Assembly: GCA_016125455.1 (NCBI GenBank)
Contig: WGLS01000001.1
Coordinates: 620,001 to 684,000, forward strand
From: Alphaproteobacteria bacterium
GTDB lineage: Bacteria; Pseudomonadota; Alphaproteobacteria; Caulobacterales; Parvularculaceae
DNA length: 64,000 nucleotides
Direction of reading: 5' to 3'
Below, one piece after another: positions 15,606 through 27,252 of the stretch. The position numbers and the translations under genes are program-made. The notes under the pieces were generated by a model. That model was not told the origin of the DNA. It did no database searches and was given only the letters and a program-made list of their open reading frames with translations. Within the stretch, counting starts at the first letter, position 1. Every line of letters begins with the position of its first letter.

Positions 15606-17390
15606 ATGCGCCGGAATTCTCCCATTTGCCGCCATCGGGGACGAGGCGGTGCGGCGGCTGCGCGGACGGCGTTGCTGACAGCGGCTCTCGTGCTTGGCGG
15701 CTGTGGAGGGGGGGAGGACGCGCCGCAAACGCGCGTCGCGGCGACGGCAAGATCGGCCGCCGCCGCGCCGTCCGAGCCATCGCCTCTCGATCTTGAATTC
15801 CGGCTTGCGAATGCGGCGCCGATTGACGTCGACAGACTGTTTGCGTTGTTGCCTGTGGAAATGCGTCCGACCTTCGCCGGGACGTCCTTCGACGCGGAGT
15901 CGGGCGCTACAGTCCTCACTGGCGTGGCTTTTCCGGCGGCGCGATTCAAGGGCGACGGCGCGGTCGAATACGATGTGGAGTTCGACGGGCTGCGGGTCGA
16001 CCGGATGGAGCTCTACGGCGTCGACGTTGAAGCGCTCGATGCGGTCATTGACGGCGAACCGGCGATGCATTCGCCGATGCGGCGGGTCCTCACGAAGGCT
16101 CGCCTTTTTGGCGTGCGCGGTCCGAAGATCGATGATGGCGAAATGCGCGATGGCGATGGCGAGCCGATTGTCGATGCCGTGGTCGGCGCGATCGAAATCG
16201 CCGGCCTGTCGGCGCGTGAGGGCGGTCTGCCGCCTTTGCCGTCAAACGTGGATGCGGAAGGCGCGGGACTAGCGCGCCTGATGTACGCATTCGCCCTTGA
16301 TGGACTGTTCTTCAAGGATGTCGCATTTGCCGCGCGCGAAACGACGGCGGCCGGCCTGCCTGTCAAGGAAATGACGATGCCCGACATCCGGCTCGTCGGC
16401 CTCCAGGGCGGCCGGCTTGACGCGCTCGTCGTCAATGGCTTCCTGTCCATTACGCGCGACGCCGAGCGTCCTGAGATCGGGTCCGGATTGTTCGGGCCAG
16501 TCGCTGAAGCGCTGTCTTCGCCGTTTGAAGACGCGATATCGCCAAGCGAAAGCCGCACGTCGATCGACCTGATCGAGTGGCGGGGCGCGGATGCCTCGCA
16601 ACTACTTCCGTTCACGCTTCGCGGCGAAACGCCGCCGACCAGCGAGCGCAACCTGATCGATCTCGGTGCAATCAGCATGCGGAATTCAAGGACTTATATT
16701 GACGGCCGCCTGTTCGCCTCGACGCCGACGGCGGAAGTCTCCGAAATGAAATTCGCCTGGTTGGCGCCCTCGAAGATAAGGGCGCGGGCAAATGACATTT
16801 TCTATGATTTCACCGCTCTTTTCGACCCTGTTGCGGACAGTGAATCCATTGAATTTCTCGAAGAGCTTGCCCTTGACGGCGTCGAGGCCCAGGCAAGCCT
16901 TGGTTTTGACTGGGATCCGGATCGCGGCGCCGCGCACCTTGATGCATCGTCGGTCGCAAAAGGATTCGCATCAACCACGGCGGTTGTCGATCTCACGGAC
17001 ATGCGCCTCGCTGATGTCGACCGGATGTCCCTCGTTCGCGGATCCGATGCGGTATTCGATCTGGCGGCGCTGTCAGGCCTCGACGTGACAATCACTGACG
17101 AAGCCGCTCTTGACGCCATCTTCGGCCTTATGGCGATCGATGGGGGCGCCGGCGCCAAGACAACGCGCGGCGCTGTTACCGCGTTGCTGCGGTTCGTCGG
17201 GATGCAAGTCGGCTTCATGGAGCCGCGCTACGCCGACTATGTCGACGCCGTCGCGGATTTCATGCAGCAGGGCGGCGTACTGAAGATTGTAGCAAGTCCT
17301 GAAAATCCTGTGCCATTCGCCGAGCTGGAAGCGCTGGAGGGCGCCGAAGCTGTCAATCGTCTCGACCTGACGATCGATCACGAGGACTGA
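15606..17390 (+). CDS. large lipoprotein of unknown function
   Basis: 594-aa predicted lipoprotein. The leader has a basic n-region, then TALLTAALVLGGC with C33 as the lipidation site. ATG 15606 has AGGTGG upstream, so I prefer it to an earlier in-frame ATG at 15531. The mature protein is acidic, Asp-rich and repetitive in style: several segments read as beta-type units with the pattern 'alsgL.l......l....l..i', as in self-repeating periplasmic proteins. I recognise no domain. It is followed 14 bp later by a convergent ParA-like gene. Confidence 0.8.
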   Translation: MRRNSPICRHRGRGGAAAARTALLTAALVLGGCGGGEDAPQTRVAATARSAAAAPSEPSPLDLEFRLANAAPIDVDRLFALLPVEMRPTFAGTSFDAESGATVLTGVAFPAARFKGDGAVEYDVEFDGLRVDRMELYGVDVEALDAVIDGEPAMHSPMRRVLTKARLFGVRGPKIDDGEMRDGDGEPIVDAVVGAIEIAGLSAREGGLPPLPSNVDAEGAGLARLMYAFALDGLFFKDVAFAARETTAAGLPVKEMTMPDIRLVGLQGGRLDALVVNGFLSITRDAERPEIGSGLFGPVAEALSSPFEDAISPSESRTSIDLIEWRGADASQLLPFTLRGETPPTSERNLIDLGAISMRNSRTYIDGRLFASTPTAEVSEMKFAWLAPSKIRARANDIFYDFTALFDPVADSESIEFLEELALDGVEAQASLGFDWDPDRGAAHLDASSVAKGFASTTAVVDLTDMRLADVDRMSLVRGSDAVFDLAALSGLDVTITDEAALDAIFGLMAIDGGAGAKTTRGAVTALLRFVGMQVGFMEPRYADYVDAVADFMQQGGVLKIVASPENPVPFAELEALEGAEAVNRLDLTIDHED

Positions 17391-25887: not shown

Positions 25888-26286
25888 TCAGCAGGCTTTC
25901 GCCTGCGCCCGCTCCGCGTCGCTGTCTTTCATGACGGCCTCTTCGTCGAGCAGGCCGGCAAGATCGCGGAAGGCGGAATAGGCCACCGCGTCGTGTCGAG
26001 AGAGGTCAGCGAGGCGATAGTCGATGCCGGGCGCATCCCACCGCCAGAGCGCCATCTTGAACAAGACCTCCCGCGGCGTTGTCGCCGGGATTTCGGCCGC
26101 CGCCCGCATGGTTTCGTTCATCGCCTGCACCAGGGTCTGGGTCGACTGTTCGCCGTCGCGCAGCAAGGCGTCGATGTCCCGATACACGGCAAAAAGCTGT
26201 TCATGCGGGTCGGTCGCCAGTTCGCCTGGCGCCCTGGCGGCTCGCCGAATGTCAGCAATGCGTAGTTTCAGGCGTTCTGACGCCAT
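25888..26286 (-). CDS. hypothetical protein, possible LuxR target
   Basis: 132-aa soluble, mostly helical protein that I do not recognise. ATG 26286 has GAGGAGCCAGGA upstream. It is charged and acidic in the last 40 residues, with no signal peptide or membrane segment. It is divergent from the LuxR gene, and a 20-bp perfect-arm dyad at 26365-26384 lies 79 bp upstream of its start, so it may be regulated by that LuxR (inference). Confidence 0.65.
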   Translation of the reverse strand: MASERLKLRIADIRRAARAPGELATDPHEQLFAVYRDIDALLRDGEQSTQTLVQAMNETMRAAAEIPATTPREVLFKMALWRWDAPGIDYRLADLSRHDAVAYSAFRDLAGLLDEEAVMKDSDAERAQAKAC

Positions 26287-26364
26287 TCCTGGCTCCTCGA
26301 CGTTGTCTGGAATAAAACAGGTCAGTACGTTCTTTCGGCTGGCGACGCATGTCGCATTGCCAAT

Positions 26365-26384
26365 TGTCACGGAGTTGCGTGACA
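26365..26384. promoter_or_regulatory. lux-box-like 20-bp dyad
   Basis: TGTCACG-gagttg-CGTGACA: two perfect 7-bp inverted arms with a 6-bp spacer. Lux/tra boxes bound by LuxR dimers are imperfect dyads of 18-20 bp, so size and position fit. It lies in the divergent region between the hypothetical gene and luxR, 122 bp from the luxR start. Confidence 0.5.
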
Positions 26385-26505
26385 GGCGCAGGGACCAGCT
26401 GTGGTTGCGCGCGTTTTTGGTCAATTCGGCTCGGAAAGGCCCGTCGGACGATACTTTCAGTTGGCTGTTGTCTTTTTCGGCTTCCTGGATGCAATATTTT
26501 TCAGA

Positions 26506-27252
26506 ATGGCCAGTTCGAAGCCGGTTTCACAAACGCTTGAGCGTTTCGCCCTGAGGTTGCGCGCCGCAGAAAGCTTCGAGCTTCTCCGCGACATTGTGGT
26601 GTCTTTCCTGGACGCGGAGGGCGTCGCGATGGCGAGCTATCACCATTTGCCGCCTCCCGGCGCAAAAGACTATGCGCCGACCATTTCCGTCGCCGCCCAC
26701 GGTTTCCCCGAAGACTGGCTTCGCGCCTACCGCGACCAGCGCTACTACGAAATCGATCCGATCCCGCGCCGCGTTCTCGATCTCGGCTTGCCCTTCTGGT
26801 GGTCTGAGGCGCGGGAAATGCCGGGGCTCTCCGCTGCGGAGAAAGACTTCCTGAATGAGCTTGAGCGCGCCGGTTTCGGTGATGGCCTCGCGATCGCGGT
26901 ATTCGGGCCGCATGGACGAAACGGTTATGTCGGACTTGGGTGCGGCGTCGGCAACGGCCCGAAATGGTCCGCGGAGAAAGTAGCCCGGCTGCAGATCGCC
27001 GCCCAGGCCGGCCATCAGCAATACTGTCATTTGCTCGCAGCGAAAGCGCCCGCCGGGGTCTCGTTGTCCGACCGGGAACAACAGATCCTCGGATGGATGG
27101 CGCGCGGGAGGAGCAATGCTGCGATCGCCGAAACCGTTGGCATCTCGCCGAACACGGTCGACACGTACGTGCGCCGGATCTACGAGAAGCTTGATGTCAC
27201 GGACCGGGTGACGGCTTCGTTGCGGGGCCACGCGCTCGGGCTGATTGATTGA
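26506..27252 (+). CDS. LuxR-family quorum-sensing receptor (solo)
   Basis: 248-aa regulator with an N-terminal autoinducer-binding domain and a C-terminal LuxR-type HTH (about 184-246). The residues invariant in TraR ligand domains are all present at a constant offset of +14: W71, Y75, D84, W99 and G127 for W57, Y61, D70, W85 and G113. In the HTH, E191, L195 and G201 match E178, L182 and G188. It should therefore bind an acyl-homoserine lactone. No luxI-type synthase is in the window. ATG 26506 was chosen over an upstream in-frame start because it matches the family's usual N-terminus. Confidence 0.93.
   Translation: MASSKPVSQTLERFALRLRAAESFELLRDIVVSFLDAEGVAMASYHHLPPPGAKDYAPTISVAAHGFPEDWLRAYRDQRYYEIDPIPRRVLDLGLPFWWSEAREMPGLSAAEKDFLNELERAGFGDGLAIAVFGPHGRNGYVGLGCGVGNGPKWSAEKVARLQIAAQAGHQQYCHLLAAKAPAGVSLSDREQQILGWMARGRSNAAIAETVGISPNTVDTYVRRIYEKLDVTDRVTASLRGHALGLID

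Follow-up and report, generated by a model that had tools for sequence, protein, structure and literature searches.

The luxR/u132 locus

The window, meaning the whole stretch of 64,000 nucleotides analysed here, carries a LuxR-type gene and a divergently oriented partner, termed u132, with a 20-bp dyad in the intergenic region that separates them (Table 1). The luxR start is assumed to be the ATG at 26506. Its reading frame is open upstream to a GTG at 26401 and that of u132 to a TTG at 26424, so that an ORF caller allowing these starts would place the dyad within a gene. The sequence GAGGAG lies upstream of the u132 start (ATG 26286) and several u132 homologues, which were cut at start codons by hand, have no longer N-terminus. 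On its other side, u132 is adjoined by a convergent gene for an SRAP-domain protein (PF02586; 25155-25883), which was not found when the related loci were searched for it.

Table 1. Features of the locus and candidate RNA loci in related genomes
Feature	Position	Strand	Basis
u132, divergent 132-aa gene; undescribed, predicted helical family (KLALWRWDAP ... DAVAYSAFRDL)	25888..26286	-	family alignment
Divergent intergenic region between both ATGs, 219 bp	26287..26505		sequence
20-bp operator-like dyad TGTCACG-GAGTTG-CGTGACA	26365..26384		exact match; leave-one-out 22.8 bits
Left arm of dyad, TGTCACG	26365..26371		sequence
Right arm of dyad, CGTGACA	26378..26384		sequence
LuxR-type gene, 248 aa	26506..27252	+	PF03472, PF00196, nine TraR invariants, relatives
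Candidate small RNA loci L045, L046 (two sites each), L092, L093, L225	behind luxR	minus	

The window LuxR possesses an Autoind_bind ligand domain (PF03472; residues 27-172, 1.7e-25) and a GerE helix-turn-helix (HTH) domain (PF00196; residues 186-237, 2.4e-17), both above the curated cut-offs; this is the combination that marks quorum-sensing (QS)-type LuxR proteins. The solved structures that it matches are CviR, RhlR, TraR, LasR and SdiA. All nine TraR-invariant residues listed in the accessible text of PMC4338825, six of which belong to the ligand domain, are present. W71, Y75, D84, P85, W99 and G127 correspond to TraR W57, Y61, D70, P71, W85 and G113, each at TraR+14, and E191, L195 and G201 of the HTH correspond to TraR E178, L182 and G188, each at TraR+13. 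The original prediction had counted five ligand-domain and three HTH invariants at a constant offset from TraR; the residues are indeed present, but the ligand-domain list contains six, and the offset is constant within each domain while shifting by one between them. The recognition region of the HTH is TVDTYVRRIYEKL, and identity to the closest relatives is 46-56%. Plasmid records returned matches to this LuxR only below 60% identity and no match to u132. The window's own genome contains a single PF03472 match; a second LuxR-like gene, located on contig 10 and 36% identical, passes the Pfam cut-off with GerE alone and is without the site described below (9.8 bits).

A search of the own genome (3.6 Mb) with the luxI profile PF00765 gave no match, an absence that is not absolute because the genome is 96.33% complete; the earlier remark that no luxI is visible in the window can accordingly be extended to the genome. 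As the controls of this search matched nowhere, it was extended to relatives, where PF00765 was found in 16 of 61 genomes by the same search, again with none in the own genome (G000). G004 and G026, the owners of the closest luxR/u132 pairs, were also without a match. That luxI might adjoin a rearranged form of the locus was considered for the eight genomes with a LuxR/u132 pair that were included in the 61-genome search. None carries luxI on the contig of the pair, but four have it elsewhere (G036, G033, G011 and G007, each on a different contig), so an own signal is possible in those genomes. The comparison supports the view that the window LuxR is a solo within its own genome.

The dyad and its distribution

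The window dyad, TGTCACGGAGTTGCGTGACA, has exact arms of 7+7 bp around a 6-bp spacer, precisely as had been predicted from the sequence of the divergent promoter, and its leave-one-out score is the highest in 14 kb. Taken alone it is not significant: four matches to its pattern with up to three mismatches were found in the window against 2.64 expected, and, by a rough estimate, about every sixth 200-bp stretch would contain a perfect 7-bp dyad with a spacer of 0-12 by chance. It gains its weight from conservation in relatives rather than from the statistics of the window. The description of the dyad as lux-box-like stands for length and symmetry, since it is a 20-bp dyad in what would be the target promoter, and fails for sequence. 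CT(N12)AG is absent, positions 3-4 and 17-18 being TC and GA, and the dyad contains no CT at all. A consensus scan of 26200-26560 found neither a sigma-70-like promoter nor a terminator. Outside the dyad, the intergenic sequences of the window, G004 and G026 have diverged too far for MAFFT, which did not align the dyads with one another. A copy with one mismatch at 17071-17090 of the window lies within a long ORF and is probably due to chance.

Dyads upstream of luxR/u132, together with one G026 site noted by eye, gave the form TGTC(A/C/G)CG-N6-CG(T/G/C)GACA, with deviations, and a symmetric profile was built from eight seed sites picked by eye, many of the loci being related. The 20-bp clade consensus is TGTCMCG-N6-CGKGACA. 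In leave-one-out scoring the best match was the luxR/u132 site in all eight seed loci, with 16.1-24.9 bits (window 22.8, G004 16.1, G026 19.2, G078 21.6, G081 17.0, G036 24.9, G065 20.9 and G011 C50 21.0). Shuffled loci reached 13.7 bits at 95% and at most 16.0 among 240, and a threshold of 15 bits was adopted. A further 14 non-seed loci scored 15.2-26.2 bits with the site beside luxR or u132: those of G035, G007, G080, G236, G284, G289 and G285 (L083, L084, L139, L153, L158, L168, L173), those of G041, G037, G028, G008, G025 and G029 (L042, L043, L045, L046, L092, L093), and a Parasphingopyxis locus (L034). The site of G079 (L141) is a copy of the G065 seed. Overall, 23 of 48 loci scanned carry a site of at least 15 bits beside luxR or u132. 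The 25 loci without one include nine where u132 has no LuxR next to it, as well as G033 (10.8), G011 C2, G063, G031, G015, G024, G032, G030, G020, L032 (labelled Woeseiaceae) and L033. Away from the module, a single match exceeded the threshold (15.4 bits, within polA of L092), and one in L140 came close at 14.8.

The site follows the gene pair. Relatives that keep the pair had been proposed as a check on the dyad, and a related 20-bp site is present at 16 of 18 LuxR/u132 loci, including the closest, G004 and G026, and missing at G033 and G011 C2. By comparison, seven of the 22 clade loci without an adjacent u132 have it (Fisher 4e-4), in four cases ahead of candidate RNAs, in two immediately ahead of luxR and in one ahead of another gene; 17 of 40 clade loci are without it. 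The G030 locus is informative in this respect. Its luxR adjoins a semialdehyde-dehydrogenase gene as in G004 and G026 (84-86% identical), and it has neither u132 nor the site, the best score between the genes being -0.8 bits. Because the G030 LuxR groups with that of G026 inside the G004 branch (95/60 and 100/98), joint loss of u132 and the site is the simplest reading. Six loci (L047, L083, L084, L139, L140 and L141) have the tandem order luxR-luxR-u132. Two to four of the six ligand-domain invariants have been lost from the second LuxR, and at five of the six loci a site of at least 14.2 bits stands in front of the second luxR as well as of u132.

The site also follows one clade of LuxR proteins. 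A tree was built from 62 LuxR rows after four without a normal HTH match had been dropped, and identical C-termini were merged before counting. A 100/99 branch separates 47 of its rows from the other 15, and all 29 site-associated rows (site of at least 15 bits within 600 bp of luxR) are among the 47. The remaining 18 of these 47 have no site, and neither does any of the 15 rows across the branch, 12 of which come from luxI loci. The Fisher values for this association, 1e-5 when rows are counted and 5e-5 when loci are, serve as guides only because the rows are related. The 17 luxI loci scanned (L064-L080) reached at most 10.2 bits. A (V/I)DTxxRR recognition region is shared by most clade rows, with departures in the second LuxR of tandem loci; the 15 rows outside the clade have different ones. 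All six ligand-domain residues are retained by only nine of the 29 site-associated LuxRs. The further neighbours of clade LuxRs with a site, assessed by eye, vary: the window has purA, whereas G004 and G026 have a semialdehyde dehydrogenase and G025 and G029 a gene resembling polA. These comparisons support the dyad as a putative operator common to luxR and u132.

Class II activation by LuxR at a lux box involves a site centred near -42. Among 23 non-redundant cases, YTA on the presumed target side starts 20 nt past the site in 10 (one on the other side) and 21 nt past it in three (none on the other side), giving an activator-like spacing to a -10-like element in 13 of 23. Across offsets 15-23, YTA occurs on the target side in 15 of 23 and on the other side in seven, against a background of 6%. 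For these counts target directions were assigned by hand and the near-copies L141, L158, L043, L046 and L093 were removed. If the offset-20 YTA marks the start of the -10 element, the site would be centred near -42, as in class II activation. The window and G026 have no YTA at activator spacing on the target side, and in G004 it is weakly present. The G041 and G037 sites stop a few nucleotides short of the luxR start. A combined probe of site and YTA, allowing up to one mismatch, returned noise from 62 family genomes (23 matches against control columns summing to 44) and was set aside; its five exact matches are all at LuxR modules.

Additional copies of the dyad upstream of genes had also been suggested as a check. 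In the own genome the exact pattern with up to two mismatches has nine copies against two for a reversed-pattern control, a further count of close copies gave 14 against five, and the consensus pattern shows a modest excess of 36 over 26. The control exceeds the dyad pattern in some genomes (G015, 7 vs 16; G236, 7 vs 19). Eighteen of the 35 other sites in the own genome were examined and all 18, among them the copy at 17071 of the window, fall inside predicted ORFs, so that the search did not bear out the suggestion and a multi-site regulon of this genome is unsupported.

The u132 family and candidate small RNAs

Homologues of u132 are found in 11 of 61 relatives. A 14-row profile has matches in 45 genomes of a 299-genome sample of the order; in a 385-genome sample of the class it matches one, the own genome. 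K77, W81, R82, D108 and L109 are invariant across the 14 rows. A Pfam search with the 14 members gave no family (best chance match 0.019), nor did an NCBIfam search with the window protein. The 132-aa gene belongs to a real, conserved and undescribed family. A single-sequence structure model, weak at a pLDDT of 66.9, consists of five helices.

A LuxR ligand-domain gene lies within 1.5 kb of 19 of the 60 u132 matches (59 loci), and of 14 of the 21 strongest (E below 1e-30). Because the genomes concerned carry few such LuxR genes, this adjacency is probably far beyond chance. The pair is divergent at seven loci (window, G004, G026, G033, G011 C2, G078 and G081) and in line, with luxR first, at 11 (G036, G035, G007, G080, G065, G079, G011 C50, G236, G284, G289 and G285). 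Among 25 u132 loci without LuxR, neighbours were scanned against Pfam at 19 (20 proteins; the 3' neighbour for L159, both for L157), the others being L081, L150, L154, L160, L163 and L164. At seven of the 19 a regulator is the divergent 5' neighbour, belonging to the TetR (three), Crp/FNR (one) or HTH_3 (three) class (L090, L142, L146, L147, L149, L151 and L156), and two of these, L090 and L142, are strong u132 matches. u132 may be an output protein under differing local regulators. Separately, at L088 (2666-4411) and L089 (1966-3549) large proteins with a similar N-terminal region by eye are encoded divergently from u132-family genes; Pfam recognises only TPR repeats in one of them and has no match for the other.

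The site also occurs behind luxR in G028 and G008 (two each) and in G025, G029 and G064 (one each). Next on the same strand come a CU run of the type CTCTCTCCCCC and a GC-rich hairpin, both conserved between species. A terminator scan flagged both hairpins of G028 (L045) and that of G029 (L093). The hairpin of G025 has a T run by eye, and those of G008 (L046) and G064 (L225) have poor T tails. Elsewhere among the loci scanned, the CU run is found only at L046 6674 and L070 1729. No conserved ORF was seen by eye in these stretches, and an Rfam search of four of the five loci (all except L225) gave no family at E up to 1. The window has neither a terminator nor a CU run that would indicate such an RNA. 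On sequence grounds, the CU-run stretches may be small RNAs driven by the site, and the run could pair with ribosome-binding sites.

Proposed mechanism and relation to known systems

The reading that we prefer, with a probability of roughly 0.7, is that a solo LuxR of a distinct clade binds the dyad and controls u132, perhaps together with itself. The window protein would be a quorum-type receptor whose ligand is probably acyl-lactone-like and made by others. As a dimer, probably with its ligand bound, it would attach to the 20-bp dyad in the divergent promoter and control u132, by activation or repression, and perhaps luxR. u132 would be a small, probably helical protein with a presumed output function, and its family would often stand under a local divergent regulator, here LuxR. 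The computed basis of this model comprises the domains and residues of LuxR, the failure to find luxI, the conservation of pair and site, their joint absence in G030 and the activator-like spacing in relatives.

As an alternative, LuxR could be a repressing or autoregulating switch, the window dyad blocking one or both divergent promoters until ligand lifts the block. The window has no -10-like element at activator spacing and its site lies in the shared divergent region, the sites of G041 and G037 end just before luxR, and repressing solos, CarR and CepR2, are described in the portion of PMC4338825 at hand. The activator spacing of 13 of 23 cases speaks against this reading, which is unlikely but deserves to be taken seriously. 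The dyad could also belong to another regulator, with LuxR acting elsewhere or through another site, as might be suspected from the absence of CT(N12)AG, the lack of a -10-like element at the usual spacing in the window and the 18 of 47 clade rows that have no site. However, the site keeps to one LuxR clade, being present at 29 of its 47 rows and at none of 15 other LuxRs, and remains beside clade LuxRs despite their differing further neighbours, which makes a foreign owner highly improbable. Coincidence, with a dyad that happens to lie next to a gene pair to which it has no connection, would account for the lack of significance in the window alone and the modest genome excess over control; it is contradicted by conservation across loci and by the joint absence with u132 in G030, and can be given next to no weight.

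The role of u132 might also be different. It could be a TraM-like anti-activator, switched on by LuxR and binding LuxR in a negative feedback, for which TraR-TraM is a precedent (PMC13043044, from the part of that source consulted). Its small size, its all-helical prediction from the weak model, its position next to luxR and the LuxR-clade site in front of it are all compatible with such a role. Yet a search of solved structures with the u132 profile, run to E 5, gave five matches, none of them a TraM chain, and a fold search with the weak model (pLDDT 66.9) gave nothing at E <= 0.001. Family members also adjoin TetR, Crp/FNR and HTH_3 regulators (seven of the 19 non-LuxR loci scanned), which makes a LuxR-specific binding role unlikely for the whole family. 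An anti-activator is on this evidence decidedly doubtful, and u132 as an output of LuxR is the reading kept here. The TraR-TraM system shares with the window a LuxR-type protein and a nearby gene for a small, probably helical protein; it differs in that no TraM chain is found among the u132 matches, no luxI is found here and u132 family members are also encoded next to regulators other than LuxR.

Solos with intact AHL-binding residues, such as the SdiA, ExpR and PpoR groups covered by the accessible part of PMC4338825, have in common with the window LuxR the Autoind_bind and GerE domains, the nine invariants and a genome in which no luxI is found. The window protein differs from them in its recognition region (TVDTYVRRIYEKL), operator sequence and neighbour. 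In the tree it lies across the 100/99 branch from luxI-linked LuxRs, SdiA, ExpR and PpoR being absent from that tree. The clade site resembles the canonical lux box as a 20-bp dyad and departs from it in having TC(N12)GA for CT(N12)AG and TGTCMCG arms. In 13 of 23 cases, the window not among them, its spacing to a -10-like element would centre it near -42. Subramoni et al. 2015 (PMC4338825, in the portion available) noted palindromes lacking CT(N12)AG ahead of some alphaproteobacterial solo units, and a group 3 solo whose unit includes a gene for a small hypothetical protein. For these alphaproteobacterial groups that portion gives no consensus and no protein family; of the 385 genomes sampled from the class, the u132 profile matched the own one. 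The solo subgroups described in the accessible part of PMC10134790 include neither a u132-type partner nor the clade site, and a search by title or abstract, mostly outside subscription journals, found no literature on a luxR/u132/site module. The window LuxR adds a member to the LuxR solos, and its site and partner make a variant.

LuxR solos are common, and their targets and operators are mostly unknown. The recurrence of a mirror-image site beside related gene pairs suggests a little-studied regulatory switch. The clade identified here comes with an operator consensus, a candidate direct target and one natural case in which site and target are both missing, so that target and ligand become testable with one reporter construct. 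The u132 family, which has no Pfam match, is an unstudied candidate output beside several regulator classes. A wider proposal, offered tentatively as possible rather than probable, is that the solo clade not linked to luxI uses its own operator class, TGTCMCG-N6-CGKGACA, as a portable switch. Its targets would vary by genome between u132, a second LuxR and small RNAs whose CUCUCUCCCCCC-type run pairs with ribosome-binding sites, the last forming a post-transcriptional arm of eavesdropping. The candidate small RNAs, if real, would tie LuxR solos to translation control.

G037 and G041, two related genomes of another family, carry near-identical CGTCACGAAG-type dyads at further positions (G037 C1 2106105, 2132257, 2166512 and 2172417; G041 C1 2453227 and 2490478), which are perhaps a repeat or a second operator.
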